Shown here: piece by piece, positions 2,591 through 49,916 of the stretch
How positions within the stretch are numbered: the stretch's first letter is position 1
Layout of the letters: every line of letters starts with the position of its first letter
Assembly: GCA_017619445.1 (NCBI GenBank)
Contig: JAFZSI010000037.1
Span: 1-50,073, forward strand
Reading direction: 5' to 3'
Length of the DNA stretch: 50,073 nucleotides
From: Prevotella sp.
GTDB lineage: Bacteria > Bacteroidota > Bacteroidia > Bacteroidales > Bacteroidaceae
The notes under the pieces: generated by a model
The model's input: only the letters and a program-made list of their open reading frames with translations
The model's database searches: none
Told to the model about the DNA's origin: nothing
Translations under genes and position numbers: made by a program

Positions 2591-2654
2591 CAAAGTATTG
2601 CTTTAGTAAAATAAAACAGCACGTGGCGATGAAATTCTCTAGAGAATTTGGTGT
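2591..2654 (+). repeat. 21/22-bp modular repeat, copy 1
   Basis: Two 21-bp units begin at 2591 (CAAAGT, with TTTA at positions 12-15) and 2612 (TAAAAC). They are followed in register by a 22-bp core at 2633 whose centre, 2632-2649, is the perfect palindrome AAATTCTCTAGAGAATTT. It lies between the divergent MORN and kdsB genes and ends 18 bp before the kdsB -7 element. Same family as the arrays near 18.1, 23.1, 28.7, 36.8 and 47.2 kb. Confidence 0.85.
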
Positions 2655-15951: not shown

Positions 15952-18006
15952 ATGCAAAAAGGTAACATCGGGGTTACTACCGAGAACATTTTCCCCGTCA
16001 TCAAAAAGTTCTTGTACAGCGATCATGAGATATTTCTGCGCGAGATGGTCAGCAATGCCATCGATGCCACCCAAAAGATGAAAACTCTGGCCGAAAAGGG
16101 CGATTTCAAGGGCGATTTGGGCGATTTGACCGTCCGCATTAGTCTCGACGAGAAGAAGGGCACGCTTACCATCAGCGACCGAGGCATTGGCATGACCGCC
16201 GAAGAGATTGACAAGTATATCAACCAGATTGCCTTCTCGGGTGTTACAGATTTCTTGGACAAATACAAGGATACGGCCAACGCCATCATCGGCCACTTCG
16301 GCCTGGGATTCTATTCCGCGTTCATGGTCAGCAAAAAGGTGGAGATCATCACGCGCAGCTATCAGGAAGGCGCACAAGCCGTGAAATGGACCTGCGACGG
16401 TTCGCCTGAATTCACCATCGAAGACACAGAAAAGGCCGACCGCGGCTCTGACATCGTGCTCTATATCGACGATGACTGCAAGGAATTTCTTGAGAAGCAG
16501 AAAATCCAGGAACTGCTCAATAAGTATTGCAAGTTCCTGCCCGTTCCTGTTGCATTCGGTAAGAAAACAGAGTGGAAAGACGGCAAGCAGGTGGATACCG
16601 AAGAGGACAATGTCATTAACAATGTTGAGCCCCTGTGGACCAAGACTCCATCAACACTCAAAGACGAGGATTACAAGCAGTTCTACCGTACACTCTACCC
16701 CATGCAGGACGAACCGCTGTTCTGGATACATCTTAATGTAGATTACCCATTCAACCTTACAGGCATTCTCTACTTCCCTCGAATCAAATCGAATATCGAG
16801 CTGCAACGCAATAAGATACAACTGTATTGCAACCAAGTATTCGTAACCGACCAGGTGGAAGGTATTGTACCCGAATTCCTTACTTTGCTGCATGGTGTCA
16901 TCGACTCTCCCGACATTCCTCTCAATGTTAGCCGTAGCTATTTACAGAGCGACCGCGATGTGAAGAAGATTTCCACTTACATTACTAAGAAAGTGGCCGA
17001 CCGACTGAACAGTATTTTCAAGGAAAACCGCAAGGAATATGAAGAAAAGTGGGACGACCTGAAGATTTTCATCCATTACGGCATGCTCTCGCAGGATGAT
17101 TTCTACGACCGCGCCAAGGACTTCGCCCTTTTGAAGGATGTTGACGGCAAATACTTCACTTTCGACGAGTACAAGATGCTTATCAAGGAGAACCAGACCG
17201 ACAAGGACGGCAACCTCGTCTATCTCTATGCCAACAACAAGGAGGAGCAATACACCTTCATCGAGGGCGCTCGTAACAAAGGCTACAGCGTGCTACTGAT
17301 GGACGGTGAGCTCGATACACCTGTGGTTTCCATGCTCGAACAGAAGCTTGAGAAGAGCCGCTTCACCCGTGTTGACGGCGATATCATCGACCGACTCATT
17401 GTCAAAGACGACGCCCCGAAGAACGAACTCGACAAGGAGCAGGCTGACAATTTGTCACAGGTATTCCGTTCTCAGATGCCAAAGCTCGATAAAGCCGAAT
17501 TTTATGTCGAGGTGCAGAGTTTGGGCGAGCAGTCGCAGCCAGTTGTCATTACCCAGAGCGAGTATATGCGCCGCATGAAAGACATGAGCCGCTTCCAGCC
17601 AGGAATGGCCTTCTACGGACAAATGCCCGACTCCTACAACTTGGTTCTCAACAGCGACCATCCACTCTTGAAGCGCGTACTCGACGATGCCACGGCCAAC
17701 ACAGCCGAGGCTTTGAAGCCCATTGAGGCCGAAATGAAAGGTCTTGACGCTCGTCTCGCTGCCATCAATCAGGCACAGAGCAAGAAAAAGTACGACGAGC
17801 TGACCCAGGAAGAGAAAGACGAGAGGAGCAATACGCAGAAGGCCATCGACGAGCAGCGTGACAAAAAGAACCAGCTCATTGCCGACTATGCAAAAGGCAA
17901 CAGCATTGTTCATCAGCTCATCGACCTCGCCCTACTGCAGAACGGAATGTTGAAAGGTGCTGCACTCGATACTTTCCTGAAACGTAGCGTTGAACTGATT
18001 AAATAG
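15952..18006 (+). CDS. htpG: Molecular chaperone HtpG (Hsp90)
   Basis: HtpG is the bacterial Hsp90, a dimeric ATP-driven chaperone of the cytoplasm. The 684-aa length suits Bacteroidetes. The GHKL ATPase motifs are present in the N-domain: EMVSNAIDATQKM (N box), SDRGIGMTAEE (G1), GHFGLGFYSAFMV (G2). The middle domain shows LNVSRSYLQSDRDVKKI with the catalytic-loop Arg. The C-terminal dimerisation region is ordinary. The start at 15952 follows AAGTAAAGTT. It stands alone between a sigma-54-like promoter and a terminator at 18051-18087. Confidence 0.97.
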   Translation: MQKGNIGVTTENIFPVIKKFLYSDHEIFLREMVSNAIDATQKMKTLAEKGDFKGDLGDLTVRISLDEKKGTLTISDRGIGMTAEEIDKYINQIAFSGVTDFLDKYKDTANAIIGHFGLGFYSAFMVSKKVEIITRSYQEGAQAVKWTCDGSPEFTIEDTEKADRGSDIVLYIDDDCKEFLEKQKIQELLNKYCKFLPVPVAFGKKTEWKDGKQVDTEEDNVINNVEPLWTKTPSTLKDEDYKQFYRTLYPMQDEPLFWIHLNVDYPFNLTGILYFPRIKSNIELQRNKIQLYCNQVFVTDQVEGIVPEFLTLLHGVIDSPDIPLNVSRSYLQSDRDVKKISTYITKKVADRLNSIFKENRKEYEEKWDDLKIFIHYGMLSQDDFYDRAKDFALLKDVDGKYFTFDEYKMLIKENQTDKDGNLVYLYANNKEEQYTFIEGARNKGYSVLLMDGELDTPVVSMLEQKLEKSRFTRVDGDIIDRLIVKDDAPKNELDKEQADNLSQVFRSQMPKLDKAEFYVEVQSLGEQSQPVVITQSEYMRRMKDMSRFQPGMAFYGQMPDSYNLVLNSDHPLLKRVLDDATANTAEALKPIEAEMKGLDARLAAINQAQSKKKYDELTQEEKDERSNTQKAIDEQRDKKNQLIADYAKGNSIVHQLIDLALLQNGMLKGAALDTFLKRSVELIK

Positions 18007-18050
18007 AATAAACGGCTAAAGCAATGCTTTAACCATATACACATTCTATA

Positions 18051-18098: not shown

Positions 18099-18246
18099 CA
18101 ACGCTTCGTATAGTTTCCACGACGTATTACTATGTTTTAGTAAACCTACACTTTACGTTCACAAAGCGGCACTTTACGTTCACAAAGTGGCACTTTACGA
18201 ACACAAAGTGGCACTTTACATTCAAATTTTCTAGAGAATTCATACA
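18099..18246 (+). repeat. 21/22-bp modular repeat, copy 2 (six units and one core)
   Basis: Six 21-bp units begin at 18099, 18120, 18141, 18162, 18183 and 18204 without gaps; the last four are near identical (CAAAGTGGCACTTTACG type). A 22-bp core starting AATTTTCTAGAGAATT follows at 18225. The units closely resemble the first unit after the core at 36.8 kb (TAAACCTAC shared with 18141). The array fills the gap between the htpG terminator and the rpsA promoter region. Confidence 0.92.
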
Positions 18247-18546: not shown

Positions 18547-20316
18547 ATGTCAAATTTAAAGAACGTACAGCCATTGGAAGACTTCAACTGGGAAGAATTT
18601 GAGAATGGCACAAGTGTGGACATCAGCAAGGCTGACCTTCAGAAGGCTTATGACGAGACGCTGAACAAGGTTGCTGACCATCAGGTTGTTGACGGTAAGG
18701 TGATTAGCGTTGACAAGAAAGAAGTAATCGTGAACATCGGTTACAAGAGCGACGGTATTATCCCCGCCAGCGAATTCCGTTACAACCCCGACCTCAAGGT
18801 GGGCGACACCGTTGAGGTTTATGTGGAGAATGCCGAGGACAAGAAAGGCCAGCTGGTGCTCTCTCACAAGAAGGCTCGCCTGAGCAAGAGCTGGGAGCGC
18901 GTTAACGCCGCTCTCGAGAACGAGGATGTTATTCAGGGCTACATCAAGTGCCGCACCAAGGGTGGCATGATTGTCGATGTGTTCGGTATTGAGGCATTCC
19001 TGCCCGGCAGCCAGATTGACGTTCACCCCATACGCGACTACGACATGTTCGTGGGCAAGACCATGGAGTTCAAGGTTGTGAAAATCAACCAGGAGTTCCG
19101 CAACGTGGTTGTGTCGCACAAGGCTCTTATCGAGGCAGAGCTCGAGGCTCAGAAGCGCGAGATTATCTCTAAGCTCGAAAAGGGTCAGATTCTTGAAGGT
19201 ACCGTTAAGAACATCACCAGCTACGGCGTATTCGTCGATCTGGGTGGTGTTGACGGACTCATCCACATTACAGACCTTTCTTGGGGCCGCGTAAGCGATC
19301 CTCGCGAGGTTGTACAACTCGACCAAAAGATCAATGTTGTGATTCTCGACTTCGACGACGAGAAGAAGCGCATTGCCCTCGGTCTGAAACAACTCACTCC
19401 GCATCCTTGGGATGCTCTTGACAGCGAGCTGAAGGTGGGCGACCACGTGAAGGGTAAGGTAGTTGTCATCGCCGACTACGGCGCATTCGTTGAGATTGCA
19501 CCGGGCGTTGAAGGCCTGATTCACGTCAGCGAAATGTCTTGGAGCCAGCACCTGCGCTCTGCACAGGAGTTCATGCACGTTGGCGACGAGGTGGAGGCAG
19601 TAATCCTGACTCTCGACCGCGACGAGCGTAAGATGAGCCTCGGCATCAAGCAGCTGAAGGAAGACCCGTGGGAGACCATCGAGGTGAAATATCCTGTTGG
19701 CTCAAAGCACACTGCCAAGGTTCGCAACTTCACAAACTTCGGCATCTTCGTAGAGCTTGAGGAAGGTGTGGACGGTCTGATTCACATCAGCGACCTCAGC
19801 TGGACTAAGAAGGTGAAGCATCCCTCTGAGTTCACACAGGTGGGCGCAGAAATCGACGTTGTCGTTCTGGAGATAGACAAGGAGAACCGTCGTCTGAGCC
19901 TTGGTCACAAGCAGCTCGAGGACAATCCTTGGGACACCTATGAGACGCTCTACACTCCCGGTTCTGTTCACACAGGTAAGATTACCGAGCTGCTCGACAA
20001 GGGTGCTGTAATCGCTTTGAACGAAGGCGGCGAAGGTTTTGCCACTCCGAAGCACTTGGTGAAGGAAGACGGCACTCAGGCCCAGCAGGGCGAGGAGCTC
20101 GACTTCAAAGTCATCGAGTTTGTGAAGGAAACCAAGCGCATCATCCTCTCTCACAGCCGTACTTTCGAGGAGGCTAAGGAAGAGAAGCCCGCACGCAAGG
20201 CTCGTCAGCCCAAGAAGGAAGAGGCTCCCGTTATCAACAACGTGGCTGCCGGTACCACACTGGGCGACATCGACGCACTTGCTGAGCTCAAGGCTAAGAT
20301 GGAGAAAGGTGAATAA
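18547..20316 (+). CDS. rpsA: 30S ribosomal protein S1
   Basis: The 589-aa protein has six S1 (OB-fold) RNA-binding repeats, roughly at residues 40-107, 125-190, 208-277, 295-362, 380-448 and 465-530. Clear repeat signatures are VDGKVISVDKKEVIVNIGYK, GTVKNITSYGVFVDLGGVDG, GKVVVIADYGAFVEIAPGVE and AKVRNFTNFGIFVELEEGVD. A Lys/Glu-rich tail (KEEKPARKARQPKKEE) ends the protein. S1 brings mRNA to the 30S subunit; in Bacteroidetes, where Shine-Dalgarno use is weak, it is thought to favour A-rich upstream sequences. It stands alone with its own promoter and terminator. Confidence 0.96.
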   Translation: MSNLKNVQPLEDFNWEEFENGTSVDISKADLQKAYDETLNKVADHQVVDGKVISVDKKEVIVNIGYKSDGIIPASEFRYNPDLKVGDTVEVYVENAEDKKGQLVLSHKKARLSKSWERVNAALENEDVIQGYIKCRTKGGMIVDVFGIEAFLPGSQIDVHPIRDYDMFVGKTMEFKVVKINQEFRNVVVSHKALIEAELEAQKREIISKLEKGQILEGTVKNITSYGVFVDLGGVDGLIHITDLSWGRVSDPREVVQLDQKINVVILDFDDEKKRIALGLKQLTPHPWDALDSELKVGDHVKGKVVVIADYGAFVEIAPGVEGLIHVSEMSWSQHLRSAQEFMHVGDEVEAVILTLDRDERKMSLGIKQLKEDPWETIEVKYPVGSKHTAKVRNFTNFGIFVELEEGVDGLIHISDLSWTKKVKHPSEFTQVGAEIDVVVLEIDKENRRLSLGHKQLEDNPWDTYETLYTPGSVHTGKITELLDKGAVIALNEGGEGFATPKHLVKEDGTQAQQGEELDFKVIEFVKETKRIILSHSRTFEEAKEEKPARKARQPKKEEAPVINNVAAGTTLGDIDALAELKAKMEKGE

Positions 20317-23054: not shown

Positions 23055-23287
23055 AATTTTCTAGAAAATGTTTGGCCAAAGCATCGGTTTATGACAGCAA
23101 AGCATCGGTTTATTCTCGCAAAGAATCGGTTTGTTTGTGCAAAGCATTGAGTTGTGAAAACAGAGTGCGGCTTTACGACTGAATTTTCTAGAAAATTTGC
23201 GAATAAACCGCCGCTTTAGAAAAACAAACAGCAACACCACGATTTTGGCGCTGCTGTTTGTTGTTCTAAGATGATGAATTGTTGTTC
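23055..23287 (+). repeat. 21/22-bp modular repeat, copy 3 (two cores, nine units)
   Basis: Core at 23055 (contains ATTTTCTAGAAAAT), units at 23077, 23098, 23119, 23140 and 23161, second core at 23182, units at 23204, 23225, 23246 and 23267, all in unbroken register. The first four units start CAAAGC or CAAAGA. The right part folds into a hairpin (arms about 23213-23234 and 23253-23271, with ACAAACAGCA/TGCTGTTTGT at the centre). It reaches to within 30 bp of the stop codon of TPR gene 2. Confidence 0.92.
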
Positions 23288-28718: not shown

Positions 28719-28845
28719 CGATACTCGGCTTTACATCCAAATTCTATAGAAAATTTGGACGTAAAGCAATGGATTGTGTTCATAAAGCGGCACTTTGGAA
28801 AAACAACGTAGGGAGTGGTTTTTCCAAAGTGACGCTTTAAGACAA
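28719..28845 (+). repeat. 21/22-bp modular repeat, copy 4
   Basis: Unit at 28719, core at 28740 (AATTCTATAGAAAATT form), then units at 28762 (TAAAGC), 28783 (TAAAGC), 28804 (CAACGT) and 28825 (CAAAGT). The units at 28783-28825 build a hairpin: arms 28787-28804 and 28818-28835, one mismatch in 18, 13-nt loop. The same hairpin occurs in copy 5 with a compensatory change. Confidence 0.92.
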
Positions 28846-29206: not shown

Positions 29207-29357
29207 GGAGTTATCGGGAGTTAGCAGGAGTTAGCTGACAAATCCGCGATTAAGCGAGAGTCAACCAAGCTTGCTTGGAGTTGGCCGAGCGGGAACGGAT
29301 TATCAAAATGCTTTTTCTCTCCTAACTCCTAACTCCTCTCTCCTAACTCCTTCCCTA
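29207..29357. repeat. GGAGTTATC/GGAGTTAGC and CTAACTCCT word repeats
   Basis: From 29207 the words GGAGTTATC, GGGAGTTAGC, AGGAGTTAGC are followed by CTGACAAATCCGCG, a phrase echoed near 49822 as CTGACGAATCTGTG. A CCAAGC/GCTTGG dyad and then four CTAACTCCT-type words (about 29320-29352) fill the rest of the gap between the stub and the exporter gene. Confidence 0.8.
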
Positions 29358-31610: not shown

Positions 31611-33905
31611 TTACAGCTTTATGCCCTGTTCCGAGCCATGCAGCACATTGCCCAGCTTGATTTGTTGCTTGGGATTCCTGCGGAGGGTATAGCGCACGGT
31701 TACCCACGGACTCCAGCATTTCAACTGCTCCTGATGCGTACACGACGACCAGGTGTCTGTACGGACTGTTGTCTCTGTCACATTACCGAACAAATAATCA
31801 ACGTTTACTCCAAGGTACAATTCACGGGTGGCCTGCCAGCCTGCTGCCACCCTTGAAATCAAAGGTCTTTTATATGACAAACTGGATATGGCCGTGTAGC
31901 TGTAGTCTTTCAGTTGGAACAATGAGCTTAATTCCCATTTCTTCAGATTCAGACTACCGCCAAGACTGACAGAATTGCTGTGTTTCGCCGTCTGGTCCTC
32001 AAAGAAGTCCAAGGAATGGCTGTAGCTCAGGTAAACAGCCCCTAAGCCCTTTGCCAGACTGTAGTTTATGCCTGTACTCAGCAGGTTCAGCCTTGCGTAT
32101 TTTCCCGCATTCCTGTATGTCCTTATTAATATGCCATTATCAACATATCCATGGCTTTCTATCATATCTGTGTAAAAAGAGCAGCTCGTTCCGGCGCTGA
32201 AACCCAGGCGATTTGCATAAAGGCGGTAAACACAGCTTATGTCACGGAGGATAATGGGTTTTAAGTCAGGATTGCCCCTTATGACAACCAACGGGTCGGT
32301 TGAAGTGTTAAAGGGGTTCAGCTGGCCGACAGATGGCGAGGTGTTTGTCCGCGTGTAGCTTAGGCGGAAAGACTGAAGCGGGTTGAAAGAATAATTCATA
32401 CTAAGCGAGACATGGGGCCTTGCATAGCTGCTGTTTTTGTCACCGGCTGTGAGCCACGTCCCCTTTATGCCGGCAGACGCCATGAAGCGCATTCGATTCC
32501 ACTGGCCGCTATACGAGGCATAAGCATACTCCTGCCACTCCTTGTGGTCAAACGGCGGCTGCAACACCGTCGTTAATTCTATTCTGTCGATTGTCATTCT
32601 CGTGGAACTACCAACTCCTACGCTGCCTGTATCCCATTTATGGGAGTAGTCAACGTCCAACGAGCCCGAACTGCGGTGGTTTCTGAAACGCATGTCTGCC
32701 AGCGATGACAACAGGTCCGCATCAGTATATGACTCCTCTGTTTTCCCTTCCAGTTTGTTTTCATTCCGGTTATAATACATTTTTATTTCCAGGCTTCTGT
32801 CCTGTTTTATATCATGCCTGTAATACGCGCTGAAAGTGAGCACAGAATATTTATTCTTGTGATTCGTCATATATGAAAACGGGCGGATGGCATCTTCTTG
32901 AAAAAAGCCGTTTCCCCAGCCCTTTGACCTGTCGCTCGATAATGTCAGACTCGTCTCTGCGGCAAAATAGTCATTATCATTGGGGGTCCACTTCAGCATC
33001 AGTTCGCCATAACCGGTTTCACCGTCATTCCGCAATCTGCCCTCATTGCGCTTGTAATAAAGCTCATCCTTTTGCCAGGAAGAAATGCTGAAATCCTTAT
33101 GATGGAGGAAAACGCAGGAAAAGTCCCCATACAAAGACAGTTTAGGATTGCCTGTCTCAAAGCTCACGTTCTCTTTGCCCTGATGCACGGGTATATACTG
33201 TCCTGAGTTCAGCTCTACCCATTTATAAGCCTTCCGCTTCTTTTTCAGCCTGATGTTCAGAATGTTTCTTACGTTATTATGGAGATAACGGGCATCGGCC
33301 ACGTCAATCACCTCTACCGACTCAATGTCTTTGGGATTGATGGGGGCAATCCCGGAGTTAACACTCTTCCCGTCAACCAGGACCAAGGGGGTAATGCCAT
33401 CCATAGTCTTTACACTCTGCTCAAGGCGGCTTACTCTCAGTACGGGTATCTCCTGCAATGCCTTGAACGGGTCACCACTGTTCTTCGCATATTTGGAAAG
33501 ATAAAAGATTTCCCCGTTGGCCGTATGCTTCACATGGTAGCTGCGGTCGCCCTCAACAACCACCTCTTCAAGCATCTGTGTGTCGTGGCGCAGCACAACG
33601 AGGTTCTCTCTCCTGCCTGATAACAGTACAGTGGCCGTGGTCATACCAATGTAACTTACCCTGCCCGTCACCTCAACAGAATCGCAGGCGATGGCGAACA
33701 CGCCCTCCTCGTCTGTAATGCCACCGCCTATCTGCGTGGAGTCTGTTTTGTTCAAAAGGGCAACGGTGGCGTAGGATACAGGATAGTCTTCCTCATCAAC
33801 CACCCTGCCCCTGATTTGTGACTGTGCAGACACTTTCATATTACCCCCGGCAATAAGCAGCAGCGTGACAAGGACTAAATAGGTGTAAGTATGATTTTTT
33901 TTCAT
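31611..33905 (-). CDS. Outer-membrane beta-barrel protein with carboxypeptidase-regulatory domain (copy B)
   Basis: The 764-aa protein has a signal peptide (ending near KVSAQS, residue 28), a carboxypeptidase-regulatory-like domain (about 30-110, IRGRVVDEEDYPVSYATVAL), a TonB-plug-like domain (about 125-225, EEVVVEGDRS, ALQEIPVLRVS, PLVLVDGKSV, PINPKDIESVEVIDVADARY), and a long beta-barrel to the end. It belongs with the TonB-receptor-like outer-membrane proteins of Bacteroidetes; no TonB box is obvious. It is a paralogue of copy A (33841-36231): the first 80 residues are nearly identical, the rest clearly diverged. Its first 65 bp overlap the 3' end of copy A in another frame. Likely role: outer-membrane partner of the exporter, by context only. 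Confidence 0.88.
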   Translation of the reverse strand: MKKNHTYTYLVLVTLLLIAGGNMKVSAQSQIRGRVVDEEDYPVSYATVALLNKTDSTQIGGGITDEEGVFAIACDSVEVTGRVSYIGMTTATVLLSGRRENLVVLRHDTQMLEEVVVEGDRSYHVKHTANGEIFYLSKYAKNSGDPFKALQEIPVLRVSRLEQSVKTMDGITPLVLVDGKSVNSGIAPINPKDIESVEVIDVADARYLHNNVRNILNIRLKKKRKAYKWVELNSGQYIPVHQGKENVSFETGNPKLSLYGDFSCVFLHHKDFSISSWQKDELYYKRNEGRLRNDGETGYGELMLKWTPNDNDYFAAETSLTLSSDRSKGWGNGFFQEDAIRPFSYMTNHKNKYSVLTFSAYYRHDIKQDRSLEIKMYYNRNENKLEGKTEESYTDADLLSSLADMRFRNHRSSGSLDVDYSHKWDTGSVGVGSSTRMTIDRIELTTVLQPPFDHKEWQEYAYASYSGQWNRMRFMASAGIKGTWLTAGDKNSSYARPHVSLSMNYSFNPLQSFRLSYTRTNTSPSVGQLNPFNTSTDPLVVIRGNPDLKPIILRDISCVYRLYANRLGFSAGTSCSFYTDMIESHGYVDNGILIRTYRNAGKYARLNLLSTGINYSLAKGLGAVYLSYSHSLDFFEDQTAKHSNSVSLGGSLNLKKWELSSLFQLKDYSYTAISSLSYKRPLISRVAAGWQATRELYLGVNVDYLFGNVTETTVRTDTWSSCTHQEQLKCWSPWVTVRYTLRRNPKQQIKLGNVLHGSEQGIKL

Positions 33906-36231
33906 TCTGTTTGTTATTATAACGTGAGTTCGACGTAAGCTTTATGCCTTGCTCTTTTATTCGGATGGTGTTGTTCTGCCTTATTTTCTGCTTAGGATTC
34001 TTGCGCAGGTAGTAGCGTATGCCAAAGAGGGGGCACCAGGTGCGTTTCTGTCTGCTCCATGAATAAGACGTATAAGAATCCGTGCTGGTCGTTGTCTCAT
34101 ACTTGTATCCGAAGAGCCAGTATAAGCGTGAGTATATCAGCAGGTTGGGCGTTGTCTGGTAGCTGACTGATACCATTGACAAGTTGGGAGTCAGGTATTT
34201 TGTCCTTGAAATGGGCGTGTATTCACTGCTGGTCAGACCTATATTCCCCGATATGTTCCATTTTTTCGGGTTCAGGTTAAACCCGCAACTTAAGAGACTT
34301 CTGTCCTTACGCTTCATATTCTCGAAGTAGTCAATCTGGCAGGTGTATGAAAGATGTACCTGCCCCAGACCCTTGGGGAGATTGTAATTGATATTGGGTC
34401 CGAATTCGAACAATCCGTAGTGGCCCATGTTTCGATATGTGCTTATGAACGCGCCGTTCTCCGTATATCCGTAAGGCTCGATGACATCTGAGGCATATTC
34501 GAAGTTTGCGCTTAACGATATATACAGGTTGTTGTGGTTGAACGAATAGCCTCCACCTACGTGGCGTTTCATCTCGGGCTTCAGGTTTGGGTTTCCCTTG
34601 GATATGACCATTGGGTCGGTTGACATGTTGTAAGGGTTGAGCACTCCCACTTGGGGAGAATAGCTTGTCTTGCTGTAGCTGAACTGGACAGAATGCGCAT
34701 TGCCGAGACGGTAGCTGCCGCTGACAGAAAGATGTGGGGTGAAGTAGCTGTTTGATTCACCCCCGGCATTGAGCCATGTCCCCTTCACACCTATTGAGCA
34801 CATGTAGTACAGCTTGCCCAACTGGCTGCTGAACGAAGCATAGAGATACTCGCTCAGCTCCTTGTGGATGAAAACGGGCACATGGTCGCTTATCTTGTCT
34901 ATATTGTCATTGGTCCACGAAAAAGAGCTGCCAAGGCCAAGGTAATGCCTGTTGTTCCAATTCTGCGAATAGTCAGCGTCAACCGTGGATGATGTACGTC
35001 TGTTTTTATACTCTAACGGATAAAAGCCTGAAAGCGACTGTAGGTCACTGTAGGTTTCCTCCTGTTCACCTTTTGTCTGGTTGCCGTTCACGTTGAAGGC
35101 ACCGTTCAGCTGAATTTTCTGTGAATTGGAGAAATCGTGCTCGAAGAGCATGCTTGCGGTCAGAATGTAGTATTCTATCTTGTTGAGCGATTCTCGGATG
35201 AATGTGTGGCTGCCGTCCTGATTCATTACGCCGTTACCCGTGTATGAAGAATTACCGTCTATGGCAATCACACTTATCTGGCCGCCAATAAAACTCTTCT
35301 CGTCTGGGTTCCATTTCGCCATCAGTTTGCTGTCTGTCCTCAACGTATTGTTCCTTGTCTGTCCCTCGCTGTACTTGTCGTAGCCTGGACCATGCTGATC
35401 CATCAAGTTTTCTGTCTCCTTGTGATAAGTATTTGACAAGCTCAGATCGCCATATACAGAGAATCGCGGGTTTCCTGTCTCGAAGCCGCCGAAACTGCCC
35501 GACTGCATGAGTGAAGGTATCGTGACGGCTCCGCCCAGTTCATTCCACAGGTAGGGCTTCCGCTTCTTTTTCAGCCTTATATTCAGTATTTTCCTAATGC
35601 CCTTTTGCATATATCTGGCATCCACGGCCTCTATCACCTCAACCGAGGCTATTTCCTTGGGGTCAATGGGAGAGATGCCCGAATTCACACTCTTGCCGTC
35701 AACGAGAATATAATAAGGCAGTCCTTCAATGGTTTCCACACTTTTTGAAATGACATCTATCCTCAGTTTCGGTATTTCCTGCAGTGCCCTGAAGGGATCC
35801 TTGCTTTTCTTTGCATATTTTGAAAGATAATAAATCTCTCCTGTAGCTGTGTGCTTAACGTGGTAGGTACGGTCGCCCTCAACAACCACCTCTTCAAGCA
35901 TCTGTGTATCGGGCTGAAGCATCACCGTGTTCTCCCTGTCAGAGTAAAGGGGAACCATGGCTGTGGAAAGGCCGATGTAGCTCACTTTGCCTATCACCTC
36001 AACAGAATCGCAGGCGATAGCGAACACTCCCTCCTCGTCTGTAATGCCACCGCCTATCTGCGTGGAGTCTGTTTTGTTTAAAAGGGCAACAGTGGCGTAG
36101 GATACAGGATAGTCTTCCTCATCCACCACCCTGCCCCTGATTTGTGACTGTGCAGACACTTTCATATTACCCCCGGCAATAAGCAGCAGCGTGACAAGGA
36201 CTAAATAGGTGTAAGTATGATTTTTTTTCAT
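33841..36231 (-). CDS. Outer-membrane beta-barrel protein with carboxypeptidase-regulatory domain (copy A)
   Basis: The 796-aa protein has the same plan as copy B: signal peptide, carboxypeptidase-regulatory-like domain, plug-like domain (ALQEIPKLRID, YILVDGKSVNSGISPIDPKE) and barrel. After the point where copy B stops (EQGIKL) it reads on for about 31 residues (TSNSRYNNKQNEKKSYLHLF and beyond) because the stop is absent at the junction with the duplicated 5' cassette of copy B; the tail is the first 65 bp of copy B read in another frame. Whether the tail disturbs barrel assembly is unknown. The gene itself starts inside the 105-aa ORF upstream with an identical overlap. Confidence 0.87.
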   Translation of the reverse strand: MKKNHTYTYLVLVTLLLIAGGNMKVSAQSQIRGRVVDEEDYPVSYATVALLNKTDSTQIGGGITDEEGVFAIACDSVEVIGKVSYIGLSTAMVPLYSDRENTVMLQPDTQMLEEVVVEGDRTYHVKHTATGEIYYLSKYAKKSKDPFRALQEIPKLRIDVISKSVETIEGLPYYILVDGKSVNSGISPIDPKEIASVEVIEAVDARYMQKGIRKILNIRLKKKRKPYLWNELGGAVTIPSLMQSGSFGGFETGNPRFSVYGDLSLSNTYHKETENLMDQHGPGYDKYSEGQTRNNTLRTDSKLMAKWNPDEKSFIGGQISVIAIDGNSSYTGNGVMNQDGSHTFIRESLNKIEYYILTASMLFEHDFSNSQKIQLNGAFNVNGNQTKGEQEETYSDLQSLSGFYPLEYKNRRTSSTVDADYSQNWNNRHYLGLGSSFSWTNDNIDKISDHVPVFIHKELSEYLYASFSSQLGKLYYMCSIGVKGTWLNAGGESNSYFTPHLSVSGSYRLGNAHSVQFSYSKTSYSPQVGVLNPYNMSTDPMVISKGNPNLKPEMKRHVGGGYSFNHNNLYISLSANFEYASDVIEPYGYTENGAFISTYRNMGHYGLFEFGPNINYNLPKGLGQVHLSYTCQIDYFENMKRKDRSLLSCGFNLNPKKWNISGNIGLTSSEYTPISRTKYLTPNLSMVSVSYQTTPNLLIYSRLYWLFGYKYETTTSTDSYTSYSWSRQKRTWCPLFGIRYYLRKNPKQKIRQNNTIRIKEQGIKLTSNSRYNNKQNEKKSYLHLFSPCHAAAYCRG

Positions 36232-36484
36232 TCTGTTTGTTATTATAACGTGAGTTCGGCGAATATATTTCAGTTCGGGGGATAAAACTCGTTAAACAAC
36301 TTTGCAATACATAATCACCTGAGAGAGTGGATGGCAGAATGATGCTGCTCGTTGCAGCGGGCATCAGCGTCTGGTAAATGACATCGTCATCGGCCTCTAT
36401 TGGCGTTATCCCGCGGCGGCGGCTGGTTTCCAAGGCTCGCTGTCGCAGCTGCCGGACAATCTGTTCAGATGTACTTTCTGTCAT
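36167..36484 (-). CDS. Unidentified 105-aa ORF at the head of the exporter operon
   Basis: The ORF starts MTESTSEQIVRQLRQRALET, continues with a basic-to-acidic region (RRRGITPIEADDDVIYQTLM) and a hydroxy-rich middle (PAATSSIILPSTLSG), and ends with 29 residues identical to the tail of copy A, since it too reads into the duplicated 5' cassette. There is no signal peptide and no double-glycine leader, so it is not an obvious export substrate. I do not recognise the N-terminal 75 residues. It may be a small regulator, a truncated gene, or a translated leader that couples translation to copy A (65-bp overlap). Confidence 0.55.
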   Translation of the reverse strand: MTESTSEQIVRQLRQRALETSRRRGITPIEADDDVIYQTLMPAATSSIILPSTLSGDYVLQSCLTSFIPRTEIYSPNSRYNNKQNEKKSYLHLFSPCHAAAYCRG

Positions 36485-36800: not shown

Positions 36801-37012
36801 AATATTCTAGAAAATCTGAGCGTAAAGCAAAACGTTGTATTCACAAAGCGGCACTTTAGAAAAACAACGTCGGATGTGGTTTTTCTAAAGTGCCGCTATA
36901 AGACAGAATTTTCTAGAAAATTTGAACGTAAACCTACGAGTTGTGATTGTAATGTGCAGGTTTGTATTTGCAAAGCATCACTTGGCGTTTGTAAGGCATA
37001 GTATTACTGAAT
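36801..37012 (+). repeat. 21/22-bp modular repeat, copy 5 (two cores, eight units)
   Basis: Core at 36801 (AATATTCTAGAAAAT), units at 36823, 36844, 36865 and 36886, core at 36907 (AATTTTCTAGAAAATT), units at 36929, 36950, 36971 and 36992, in exact register over 212 bp. Units 36844-36886 hold a perfect 18-bp hairpin: GCGGCACTTTAGAAAAAC at 36848-36865 with its complement at 36879-36896, loop 13 nt. The array ends 10 bp before the stop codon of the DUF4419 gene. Confidence 0.94.
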
Positions 37013-44769: not shown

Positions 44770-45450
44770 TTACTTTCTTGCCAGTTCAGCATTTATTTGC
44801 TGTGCTATCTGTGCCATTCCCTTTATCGAAGGGTGGCCGTTCATCTTATCGATGTCGTGCAGCTGAATATACTTCACGCCATAATAGTTGCAAATGGTTT
44901 TCATAGACTCTGTGATGTCGTCGCGCAGTTCAGAGTTGATGAGAATGTACAGGCGGGTGTTGGGATAACGCTTCTGCATATGGTCTATCATGTAGGCCAT
45001 AGCCGGGCGGAAGGTGTAGAAGTCGCCTTTGTTCCATTTCTCATACTTGTACTCGCCTACGGGTTCGCCCGCCCAGCTGTCGTTTGTGCCGCCAAAAACA
45101 AAGATAATGTCAGGACAACCCAGGTAGTCCATGCGGGTGAGAAACGAGCGCTCGCTATAGTCGTTGCCGTCATAGCCCTGGTAGCCGATGGTCGAGCCAC
45201 TGTAGGAATTGTTCTGGCACAGCTTCCACCCGTTCTGCTTCACCACTTGGTGCCACCACGTCTGTGTCACGTCTTCCACATCGGTATTGCCTACATGCTT
45301 GGCATAATACCACATCTCGTTGGTCTTGGGACTCACATACCCCTCGTAGGTGGAATATGAGTCGCCGAGTATAGAAACCGACTCGCGCACTTGTGCACCA
45401 GCCACAGCGCAGCAGAGCACACACATTATTAAATTAATAAACCTTTTCAT
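44770..45450 (-). CDS. Exported SGNH/GDSL hydrolase
   Basis: The 226-aa protein has a signal peptide (CVLCCAVAGAQ) and the four SGNH blocks: ILGDSYSTYEG (nucleophile Ser31), NNSYSGST (oxyanion Gly), FVFGGTNDSWAG (oxyanion Asn) and MNGHPSIKGM (catalytic His). Family members are esterases, often carbohydrate acetylesterases, in the periplasm or at the surface; the substrate is not readable. Three tandem 15-bp repeats lie directly against the start codon (45449-45493). It follows dnaB on the same strand by 117 bp. Confidence 0.9.
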   Translation of the reverse strand: MKRFINLIMCVLCCAVAGAQVRESVSILGDSYSTYEGYVSPKTNEMWYYAKHVGNTDVEDVTQTWWHQVVKQNGWKLCQNNSYSGSTIGYQGYDGNDYSERSFLTRMDYLGCPDIIFVFGGTNDSWAGEPVGEYKYEKWNKGDFYTFRPAMAYMIDHMQKRYPNTRLYILINSELRDDITESMKTICNYYGVKYIQLHDIDKMNGHPSIKGMAQIAQQINAELARK

Positions 45451-45493
45451 TTACTATTTACGGATTTACTATTTACGGATTTACTATTTACGG
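45449..45493. repeat. Three tandem 15-bp repeats at the SGNH hydrolase start
   Basis: ATTTACTATTTACGG is repeated exactly three times; the first copy shares two bases with the start codon, so the array forms the whole ribosome-binding region of the mRNA. A pyrimidine-rich run of CTCCTTTACTCC-type words continues at 45510-45566. Confidence 0.9.
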
Positions 45494-45567
45494 ATTTAGG
45501 TTTTAGACAATCTCCTTTTCTCCTTTACTCCTTCCCTCCTTCCCTCCTTTACTCCTTTACTCCTTTA

Positions 45568-47076
45568 CTAAAACACATTATCACCTGGGAGTGGTGGCAG
45601 TCCCATCGGGTCAAAATCGCCTGGAGCACTGCCATTCATGCGCGAACCGAGAATCTCTCCACTGCTCGATGGTGGGATGTAGTTGTCGTTTGGATTCTCG
45701 AAGCGGGTGAACTCGCCACGGAAATTCAGCAGCACATCGCCTGTGGCACCCTTACGGTGCTTGGCAATAATGATTTGCGCCTTGCCGTGCAAGTCGTTGC
45801 CTTTCTCGTCGTTGAATATGCGGTAATACTCAGGCCTGTGCACGAAACACACCATGTCGGCATCCTGCTCAATGGCTCCCGACTCGCGCAGGTCGCTCAG
45901 CTGTGGCCGCTTACCCTCCAGTCCTTCGCGCCCCTCCAGTCCTCGGTTCAGCTGCGACAATGCCAGGATAGGAATGTTCAGCTCTTTGGCCAGTCCTTTC
46001 AGCGAGCGGCTGATGGTGGACACTTCTTCCTGTCGGCTGCCGAAGCGCACACCGTTGGCATTCATCAGCTGAAGATAGTCAATCATAATGATTTTCACCT
46101 TTTTCTCCCTCACCAGTCGGCGCGCCTTGGTTCGCAGTTCGAAAATCGACAAGCCCGGCGTGTCGTCTATGAAGAGCGGTGCATCTTCCATATTTCTCAG
46201 GTTCTTGTCTAAGCGGTCCCATTCGTCGGGCGACATCTGTCCGTTCAGTATTTTCTTTCCCGAAATCTCGCATACGTTTGCAATCAGGCGGTTCACCAGC
46301 TGCACGTCGCTCATTTCCAGTGAGAAGAAGCCCACGGGAATGTTCTGGTCAATGGCAATATTCTTGGCCAAGGACAGCGCGAAGGCTGTCTTACCCATAG
46401 CAGGTCGCCCGGCAATAATCACCAGGTCAGAGTCCTGCCAACCCGACGTCTTGTCGTCAAGGTCTGTGTAGCCCGTTGAGATTCCCGTCAGTCCGCCTGC
46501 CGTTTCGTAAGCCTTCTGCAAAATATCCACAGCCGACTTCAGCACAGGCCCTATCTGCGTATAGTCCTGCTTCATGTTGCGCTGCGACAGTTCGAACAGC
46601 GAGCCCTCGGCTTCCTGCATCAGTTCGTCAACGTCAACCGTCTCATCATAAGCCTGCGTCTCCAGTTTGCTTGCATACTGAATGAGTTGCCTTGCCAAGA
46701 ATTTCTGCGCCAGAATCTTCGCGTGATACTCCACGTGTGCCGAGGAGGCCACGTTCTGGTTCAGTTCCAGCAGATAGATGGGGCCGCCCGCATCCTCCAA
46801 ATTGCCGTCGCGCTTCAGCTGTTCCGTCACCGTGGCAATGTCCACGGGCTTCTCCGCCAGGCTCAGCGTCTGAATGGCCTGGAATATCTTCTGGTTACGG
46901 GGTTCATAAAATGTCTCGGGATGCACCATCTCGCTAATCATCGAGAAAGCGTCCTTGTCAACCATCAGCGCACCCAGCACCAGGCGCTCAATGTCTGTTG
47001 CCTGTGGCTGCAAATGCCCGTACTGAGGGTTGATGGGGGTTGATGTGTGTCGTTTGTTAGTATTGTTGTCTGCCAT
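45568..47076 (-). CDS. dnaB: Replicative DNA helicase
   Basis: DnaB is the hexameric 5'-3' helicase of the replication fork. From ATG 47076 it has 502 residues. The N-terminal primase-binding domain starts at ATDIERLVLGALMVDKDAFS (about 25-45); the RecA-like motor has Walker A GRPAMGKTAFAL (about 225), Walker B IMIDYLQLMNA, SRSLKGLAKELNIPILALSQ and the Arg-finger region HRPEYY to GPxG-like end. No intein is present. The -7 element at 47085-47092 lies only 8 bp before the ATG, so the mRNA is nearly leaderless. A GTG at 47085 is part of that element and is not likely to be the start. Confidence 0.96.
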   Translation of the reverse strand: MADNNTNKRHTSTPINPQYGHLQPQATDIERLVLGALMVDKDAFSMISEMVHPETFYEPRNQKIFQAIQTLSLAEKPVDIATVTEQLKRDGNLEDAGGPIYLLELNQNVASSAHVEYHAKILAQKFLARQLIQYASKLETQAYDETVDVDELMQEAEGSLFELSQRNMKQDYTQIGPVLKSAVDILQKAYETAGGLTGISTGYTDLDDKTSGWQDSDLVIIAGRPAMGKTAFALSLAKNIAIDQNIPVGFFSLEMSDVQLVNRLIANVCEISGKKILNGQMSPDEWDRLDKNLRNMEDAPLFIDDTPGLSIFELRTKARRLVREKKVKIIMIDYLQLMNANGVRFGSRQEEVSTISRSLKGLAKELNIPILALSQLNRGLEGREGLEGKRPQLSDLRESGAIEQDADMVCFVHRPEYYRIFNDEKGNDLHGKAQIIIAKHRKGATGDVLLNFRGEFTRFENPNDNYIPPSSSGEILGSRMNGSAPGDFDPMGLPPLPGDNVF

Positions 47077-47179: not shown

Positions 47180-47328
47180 CAACGCTATATTTTACGCATA
47201 AATTCTCTACAAAATCTGAACGTAAAGCACCACGTTGTTCCGGCAATGCTAAGAGCCATTTTCTTAAAGCCAAGCTTTACACATAAATTCTCTAGAAAAT
47301 TTGAGCGTAAAGTACCACGTTAAGAAAC
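47180..47328 (+). repeat. 21/22-bp modular repeat, copy 6 (two cores)
   Basis: Unit at 47180 (CAACGC), core at 47201 (AATTCTCTACAAAAT, palindrome with one change), units at 47223, 47244 and 47265, core at 47286 (AATTCTCTAGAAAATT), unit at 47308, all in register. It lies between dnaB and the M3 peptidase terminator. Confidence 0.9.
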
Positions 47329-49791: not shown

Positions 49792-49916
49792 CAAGAGTTA
49801 AGAGGTCATCGACCTCTGGAGTTAACTGACGAATCTGTGGAGAAAGGATTATGTAATAGTCTTGCTAATGTCCGCTAACTTCCGTTAACTCCAGATAACT
49901 CCAGATAACTCCCGTA
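49792..49916. repeat. GGAGTTATC/GATAACTCC inverted word repeats
   Basis: The left half has TGGAGTTATC, AGAGTTAAG and TGGAGTTAAC, the right half GCTAACTTCC, GTTAACTCC and two GATAACTCCA words, so the whole stretch is loosely palindromic. AGAGGTC-ATC-GACCTCT (49802-49818) is a perfect hairpin. CTGACGAATCTGTG echoes the repeat at 29207-29357. Confidence 0.8.

Follow-up and report, generated by a model that had tools for sequence, protein, structure and literature searches.

What are the phased, palindrome-rich blocks that lie between genes in this Prevotella genome, and how have they come to occupy so many places in it? The array between htpG and rpsA raises this question, but it is only one of several in the window, which is the whole stretch of 50,073 nucleotides analysed here (G+C content 49.7%). 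Six intergenic loci made of the same two parts, namely about 30 units of 21 bp and nine palindromic cores following each other in register, had been proposed from the letters alone. All six were borne out (Table 1), with nine cores and 29 in-register units at a profile score above 2; several of these units are weak, and the proposed unit at 36865 falls below that threshold. Array B lies 3' of a hairpin that by eye resembles a terminator after htpG (stop at 18006) and 5' of rpsA (start at 18547), while array D is located upstream of gyrA and array F between dnaB and an M3-peptidase gene. Where an array contains two cores, these are spaced 127 bp (array C), 106 bp (array E) or 85 bp (array F) apart. 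A lone perfect palindrome resembling a unit is present just 3' of the htpG stop, out of register with array B, and its membership in the family is uncertain.

Table 1. Coordinates of the arrays and of other repeated features (window positions unless a contig is given)
Feature	Position	Strand	Composition
Array A	2591..2654		units 2591 and 2612 (weaker); core 2633-2648 (AATTCTCTAGAGAATT)
Array B	18120..18246		weak unit 18120; units 18141, 18162, 18183, 18204; core 18225-18240
Array C	23055..23287		core 23055-23070; units 23077, 23098, 23119, 23140, 23161; core 23182-23197; unit 23204; weak unit 23267
Array D	28740..28845		core 28740-28755; units 28762, 28783; weak 28804, 28825
Array E	36801..37012		core 36801-36816; units 36823, 36844, 36886 (36865 below threshold); core 36907-36922; units 36929, 36950, 36971; weak unit 36992
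Array F	47180..47328		unit 47180; core 47201-47216; units 47223, 47265; core 47286-47301; unit 47308
Lone unit-like palindrome	18017..18031		TAAAGCAATGCTTTA
Simple tandem repeats	45449-45569, 1231-1289, 29319-29351, 49886-49912		units of 15 bp (ATTTACTATTTACGG), 8 bp (CTCCTTTA), 7/14 bp and 10 bp
Duplicated part of about 705 bp	33231-33935 and 35557-36261		80.5% identical
Second dispersed repeat family (this genome)	L041:6335-6549, L044:9334-9548, L051:8989-9155, L037:16700-16874, L052:3273-3471, L055:12094-12295		about 165-215 bp

Other repeats were noticed in the same DNA. Besides the simple tandem repeats, a gene for an outer-membrane beta-barrel protein (33841-36231) has a part of about 705 bp in common with the gene next to it (31611-33905), and a second dispersed family, 72-93% identical in the listed matches, was found in this genome independently of the cores.

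The unit consists of a 15-bp imperfect dyad and a 6-bp linker, with the refined profile [TC]AA[AC][GC][CT]...[AG][GC][TG]TT[AG], and the core of a 16-bp dyad, AATT[TC]TCTAGA[AG]AATT, plus 6 bp; on both sides the core is flanked by similar linkers and TAAA. The term unit covers two things, as its outer letters (YA..TR) are conserved and its inner ones are drawn from a small vocabulary. Counting from the core, the first and third units are well conserved and the second is much weaker, and core-unit-weak-unit-core is among the recurrent layouts. Allowing up to two mismatches, AATTTTCTAGAAAATT matched 320 sites in the 2.87-Mb genome and its backwards control, which is the core pattern reversed and itself a palindrome of equal composition, matched none. 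At up to three mismatches, a 450-kb sample gave 79 core sites against 2 for the control, counting one site (L046:18127) that looks like a chance match. The unit profile, refined on the DNA on which it was then scored, returned 301 matches above a score of 9, compared with 81-99 after Markov shuffling and 95 after reversal of the sequence. Extrapolation from the 450-kb sample yields roughly 1000 sites in this genome. Both parts of the repeat are more frequent than chance would give.

The periodicity that the original prediction rested on was recovered as well. Neighbouring units (score above 7, 450 kb) were spaced 21 bp apart 102 times, 22 bp six times, and 20 or 23 bp never; longer spacings were mainly 42/43, 63/64, 84/85, 106 and 127 bp with a few scattered others, and the reversed control produced 25 pairs in which no one spacing occurred more than four times. 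Since the unit profile was seeded from windows at in-register offsets from cores, these unit spacings are not fully independent, and the spacing from core to core provides the independent test. Consecutive cores no more than 330 bp apart were in register (42/43, 85, 106/107, 127 or 148/149 bp) in 39 of 39 cases here and in 13 of 13 in G191, the nearest relative by HtpG (92% identity; 28 genomes searched, 25 matched). In 807 kb of this genome the spacings were 42 bp (4 cases), 85 (12), 106 (13), 107 (1), 127 (5), 148 (3) and 149 (1), and in 784 kb of G191 they were 43 bp (2), 85 (9), 106 (1) and 127 (1); an exception to strict register, detected at the looser threshold of four mismatches, is a G191 array with overlapping cores 12 bp off. 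These results confirm that the phased arrays of cores and units are real, strong and unusual.

With respect to genes, 66 of the 70 core loci examined here lay outside open reading frames (ORFs) and four inside, and the numbers inside were 1 of 40 in G191 and 0 of 25 in a further genus member, G084; by this crude caller, the coding regions are largely free of the arrays, as they had appeared to be. An earlier and looser caller placed 23 of 79 cores inside ORFs. Those overlapped by core-bearing arrays are mostly 81-155 codons long, with exceptions of 185, 270 and 286 codons, and, to judge by eye from the 270-codon case only, they seem to be spurious or to have been extended too far at the 5' end. 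Among the 58 classifiable core loci, 30 fell between tandem, 15 between convergent and 13 between divergent genes, against 129, 43 and 54 background gaps of at least 120 bp, and convergent and divergent gaps did not differ from background (807 kb, stricter gene caller). Preferences for convergent genes and for gene 3' ends looked strong in the first 450 kb; the former was abandoned when the excess disappeared at 807 kb with the stricter caller. Of the latter, a mild nearness of the arrays to gene 3' ends was left, with medians of 134 versus 179 bp here (p = 0.04) and 148 versus 240 bp in G191 (p = 0.01).

How widely is the family distributed? Cores of the form AATTNNCTAGNNAATT were found in 69 of 299 genomes of the genus, with three or more copies in 41; the backwards control gave single matches in 8 of the 299. 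Exact copies number 179 in this genome, 139 in G191, 50 in G218 and 47 in G008. A family-level search found a match in 15 of 301 genomes, four of them within the genus, and outside the genus 11 of 279 genomes had one or two core matches, which does not exceed the level of the control pattern; of these 11, G585 alone showed a true 65-bp pair. Paired cores in named genomes amounted to at least 117 stretches, and among the 80 listed the titles were Prevotella, Xylanibacter, Prevotellaceae or broader uncultured labels. Many of the listed genomes are from the rumen or another ruminant gut, and the cultured carriers among the matches listed are P. ruminicola KHT3, X. ruminicola Ga6B6 and D31d, Prevotella sp. 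P6B1 and ne3005, and P. communis E15-14. The spelling varies: G008 combines AATTTGCTAGCAAATT cores with GAAGC-type units, G077 combines AATTCTCTAGAGAATT cores with TCATCTC/TCAAAG-type units, and the cores of G180 and G283 read AATTTACTAGTTAATT and AATTCGCTAGCGAATT. On these comparisons, the repeat is apparently a genus-level family in which the spelling of the unit is species-specific.

Many relatives carry two AATTCTCTAGAGAATT palindromes exactly 65 bp apart (L080, L081, L083, L089-L092, L094, L098, L102, L107 and others), and several of these stretches are flanked by inverted runs of an 11-bp repeat, for example CCTACATAAAG; such a pair with its flanks resembles a separate element with defined ends, a few hundred bp in length. 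Palindromes at 82-84-bp spacing in G016 were set aside because their centre differs. The sole contig from a viral collection with a paired core (L423:965-1046; IMG/VR, 4,553 bp) is flanked on one side by CCTACACAAAG repeats and may be misassigned Prevotella chromosome.

A comparison with G191 indicates that places and letters can have different histories. In 27 collinear orthologous gaps, taken with and without arrays, cores were present in both species in 3, here only in 1, in G191 only in 0 and in neither in 23 (p = 0.0014), so that the persistence of addresses rests on four array loci, with loose flanks in one shared pair (L369/L393). The tblastx version of this test gave 2, 0, 0 and 43 for the same classes, and with reciprocal best hits (39 pairs) the signal was weaker, at p = 0.24 for 3' ends and p = 0.047 for 5' ends. 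Starting from the arrays, collinear flanks were obtained at 3 of 71 array loci, all three with G191 cores. At one shared address both species have two cores 127 bp apart, with units that by eye belong to the vocabulary of each species. The commonest half-sites are TAAAGC, TAAACC and CAAAGC here (91, 82 and 80 of 870) and TATCTC, TAACTC and TAACGT in G191 (59, 38 and 23 of 424). These few loci suggest that an array can keep its address in two species although the letters of its units are replaced.

Several observations bear on how the arrays arose. With flanks of 84 bp taken to the left and right of all cores, 354 of 22,944 between-locus flank pairs here were identical at 52 or more positions, against 0.17 expected from 30 column shuffles, as were 149 of 5,460 in G191 against 0.2; the shuffles mix flanks in which the array continues with flanks in which it has ended, which makes the expected counts too low and leaves only the top pairs beyond doubt. 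The best pairs matched at 69 of 84 positions here, on one side of the cores of arrays D and E, and at 81, 80 and 77 of 84 in G191, and the shuffled maxima were 56 and 53. On the far side of the core from these best-matching flanks, similarity over 27 bp was at background (12.0 versus 12.4 for 79 pairs here; 13.2 versus 13.5 for 30 pairs in G191), although the similar pairs are not independent and an array that ends at a core gives dissimilar outer flanks without any special mechanism. Three G191 loci align from core to core with unrelated left flanks, two of them partly extending one unit further to the right. Within arrays, blocks of 85 and 106 bp are duplicated in tandem and neighbouring units are alike in direct orientation (z up to 8.3). 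Bounded copies occur in related species as well: G099 has a pair of stretches with inverted ends, each about 547 bp long, that are 93.8% identical. The gene 3' of htpG differs among the inspected relatives, and no insertion site could be read there. The comparisons support the copying of blocks bounded by cores, and because the similarity of the copied blocks stops at cores, the arrays would constitute not just a binding array but also a repeat that moves or recombines. This aspect had escaped the original reading, which saw in them only binding, bending or nucleoid organisation.

The family had not been recognised as a named one. This has to be amended, since a repeat of apparently the same broad kind has been named: PINSR is a 188-bp intergenic repeat of P. 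intermedia with 177 and 184 copies in two strains and a copy downstream of tnaA, and the available part of the report assigns it no function, confines it to one clade by PCR, states that terminal inverted repeats are absent and mentions no repeats inside the element (Naito et al. 2015, PMC4755523). In the literature searched, this is the only paper that names PINSR together with Prevotella, and among the matches listed there was no second description of an array of this kind from the genus. When tnaA was searched for in 398 genus members, G084 emerged, whose two replicons measure 1.97 and 0.71 Mb and in which 200 kb contained 26 repeated peaks, one of them directly downstream of tnaA. Of the 25 aligned copies, from which a 120-bp peak (L328:7925-8044) was left out, 18 are 185 bp long, two are shorter with ends that matched inside the unit, and five had no ends found. 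The centre of the repeat consists of four tandem 22-bp dyads, AAAAS.....STTTT (self-identity 0.66 at a shift of 22 and 0.63 at 44), between imperfect inverted ends, TGTAAAGATAATTCC and TGTAAATATTTTTCA. From the two replicons, the copy adjacent to tnaA and the length of 185 bp, we infer that this repeat is PINSR and that G084 belongs to the P. intermedia group.

By way of G084, PINSR and the present arrays can be compared. Both are intergenic and non-coding, exceed 100 copies and are restricted to a Prevotella lineage, and the dyad design and one frequent word of the G084 repeat are shared. When five 13-bp words from G084 were counted in 0.81 Mb of this genome, AAACCTACGCTTT occurred five times, two others once and two never, with 0 for the backwards controls. 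PINSR differs in being one fixed sequence in a 22-bp register, whereas the arrays here vary in length and order, keep a 21-bp register, contain cores, lack the fixed length and ends of the G084 repeat, and do not have the 188-bp PINSR sequence itself; exact AATTNNCTAGNNAATT is absent from G084.

Other described systems share part of this architecture. Iteron and operator arrays are tandem protein sites on one face of the DNA; the present arrays, unlike these, stand at many loci and do not belong to a single promoter or replicon origin. REPINs consist of two palindromes that span roughly 100 bp and move as a unit. A high-copy extragenic palindrome of the REP size (about 20-40 bp) is present in the form of the 16-bp core palindrome extended by similar linkers and TAAA; a GTAG or CGTC foot is absent around the cores, with CG before TAAA in the positional profile instead. 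Like the arrays, REPs and REPINs are described in the available parts of the literature as high-copy intergenic palindromes that are often clustered (PMC3733652, PMC6006769, PMC3116915), but the arrays differ in their strict two-turn register, in the runs of dyad units between palindromes and in having no consistent RAYT partner. As for the marks of a MITE, inverted ends occur in G099 and, imperfectly, in G084, none could be defined for the arrays here, no target-site duplication was seen around the G084 copies, and a transposase was not found. The BrickBuilt MITE of Porphyromonas gingivalis resembles the arrays as an intergenic element of Bacteroidales with tandem 23-nt units, small and with inverted ends, but its 19 elements consist of direct repeats with a leader and a tail, palindromes go unmentioned in the available part of the report, and indels within an element are given there as 0-6% (PMC4596501). 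The arrays here have 21-bp dyad units and cores, and by eye they share neither a leader nor a tail.

Selection for pairing would be expected to leave compensatory changes in the two arms of a dyad, and unmatched changes leave an RNA or cruciform fold unsupported. No covariation of arms was detected in this genome (unit arms z = -0.4, 435 units; core with linkers z = -0.9, 109) or in G191 (z = -4.4, 212 units; z = +1.8, 53), and a single-position pairing test over 120 positions ranged from z = -3.1 to 3.3, one position reaching 3.3. Neighbouring units are similar in the inverted sense up to z = 3.4 here and not in G191, which may come from the mixing of array with non-array flanks. An RNA hairpin or cruciform was therefore rejected, compensatory change being absent across cores, units and neighbouring units. 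It is accordingly very improbable that the arrays are RNA-level elements, that is, 3' UTR hairpins or terminators, or promoter operators: the dyads are able to fold, a stem is visible by eye between units 36844 and 36886 and the arrays stand somewhat closer to gene 3' ends, but against this Rfam gave zero matches in the window, convergent and divergent gaps are as in the background, and array B sits beyond the terminator-like hairpin of htpG. Curvature by phased A-tracts is not conserved either, as AAA/TTT autocorrelation at 10 bp had weak values of 0.09 in this genome and 0.05 in G077 (18 flanks), and there was none in G191 or G008. Of the original suggestion, bending thus fell away as a conserved property, while binding on one face of the DNA is compatible with the two-turn dyads, the lack of arm covariation and the very few off-register spacings, and so gains indirect support. 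The half-sites of the unit vary independently here and could resemble the sites of a protein dimer. It is possible, though unlikely, that this is the whole explanation, namely that the arrays belong to the host, with a dimeric nucleoid-associated, insulating or condensing protein coating the phased dyads cooperatively, selection acting on the addresses, the letters tracking the specificity of the protein, and copying merely helping sites to arise. The position of array B outside both adjacent transcription units (by eye) and the addresses and 127-bp core spacing common to G191 despite different letters are in accord with such a host system. Its difficulties are that a candidate binding protein was not found, that the distribution is patchy, with no exact core in near-complete relatives such as G004, G024 and G249, that some 1000 sites would hardly switch specificity together by point mutation alone, and that in G191 the two halves of the unit tend to differ beyond chance, unlike simple homodimer sites.

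A mover of the REP type was also considered, in which the cores would be atypical REPs moved by a genome-encoded Y1 (HUH) transposase similar to TnpA_REP. This genome encodes such a RAYT-like protein (a PF01797 match below the curated cut-off, with DHLH and YLHDNPRR motifs by eye), and two scored units and a third seen by eye lie at the 3' end of its gene, as a core does about 100-160 bp downstream of the Y1-like gene in G191 and G099. Such an arrangement recalls the TnpAREP genes of Bacteroidetes, which according to the available part of the source have atypical structures on their flanks that recur at other places in the genome (PMC6006769). A Y1 match was also commoner in core-positive genomes (29 of 43) than in core-negative ones (11 of 37) among genomes chosen from the matches listed, uncorrected for kinship or completeness. 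However, the protein had no match in 14 of the 43 carriers, many of them incomplete, nor did PF01797 match in G084 with its PINSR-like repeat, and a Y1 profile, run without a positive control, returned nothing in 16 genomes (12 of the unmatched carriers, G084 and three others). Cores were only weakly enriched near Y1 genes (4 of 38 loci versus 1.28 expected, p = 0.04; HtpG control 0 of 19 versus 0.80), and with few Y1 genes near repeats, the carriers do not show a cognate RAYT flanked by them. The missing matches and weak adjacency weaken the case for RAYT as a universal mover; the Y1 protein is unlikely to be the general one, and we regard the classical REP/RAYT explanation as improbable. Compared with solved structures, the Y1 family profile gave no match. 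A Prevotella Y1/HUH family (L162:1501-2622, minus strand; homologues L163-L191) was seen with a long conserved C-terminal part that has the motif GAVLVSPxISPGEK; a genome can have as many as 12 matches, and the family lies below the Pfam cut-off for Y1_Tnp.

The explanation that we favour, somewhat above even, is that the arrays are a genus-level, non-coding, palindrome-rich intergenic family, non-autonomous in the manner of REPINs or MITEs, which is copied in core-bounded blocks and whose units are bound by a dimeric protein. In this family, 15-bp dyads in a 21-bp tandem register are punctuated by near-invariant 16-bp AATTNNCTAGNNAATT cores. Blocks have been copied between distant loci, their likeness stopping beyond the bounding core, and arrays also grow locally when single units or blocks of several units are duplicated in tandem. 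The core would then be an end or exchange point of the copied block, its palindrome presumably recognised by a protein of recombination or transposition that is provided in trans, and the units would be bound side by side by the dimeric protein, so that only changes by whole two-turn steps are tolerated. If the versions most common in a lineage were copied again and again between cores, all addresses would come to be rewritten together, and at the few loci compared the addresses can persist in both species with the unit letters replaced. The core-bounded block is not the whole element, because the ends of arrays are sometimes other than cores. Against this explanation, no transposase or recombinase could be linked to the family, and off-register spacings, which are rarer than dead insertions would lead one to expect, and persistent addresses fit a host function as well. 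A bolder version, which we consider rather doubtful, holds that the arrays are fixed addresses at which a recombination system recognising AATTNNCTAGNNAATT swaps cassettes at the cores, rewriting the units genome-wide to suit a co-evolving coat protein, with places, spacings and geometry kept and letters becoming lineage-specific. If true, this cassette exchange would represent a new kind of dispersed, concertedly evolving bacterial nucleoprotein system.

Compared with PINSR, the one repeat that already has a name, the family has a wider range and more internal structure. Dispersed repeats are usually judged by sequence, and relatives with changed letters are therefore missed; here it is the geometry, a two-turn register with a palindromic core, that ties PINSR to repeats found across the genus, including those of cultured Prevotella/Xylanibacter ruminicola. 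For genome annotation, stop-free 21-bp arrays of this kind can mislead ORF callers. The core and a four-unit array would offer a concrete bait for finding the protein, and conserved addresses with replaced letters would amount to a natural experiment on concerted evolution and on the co-evolution of a protein with its sites.
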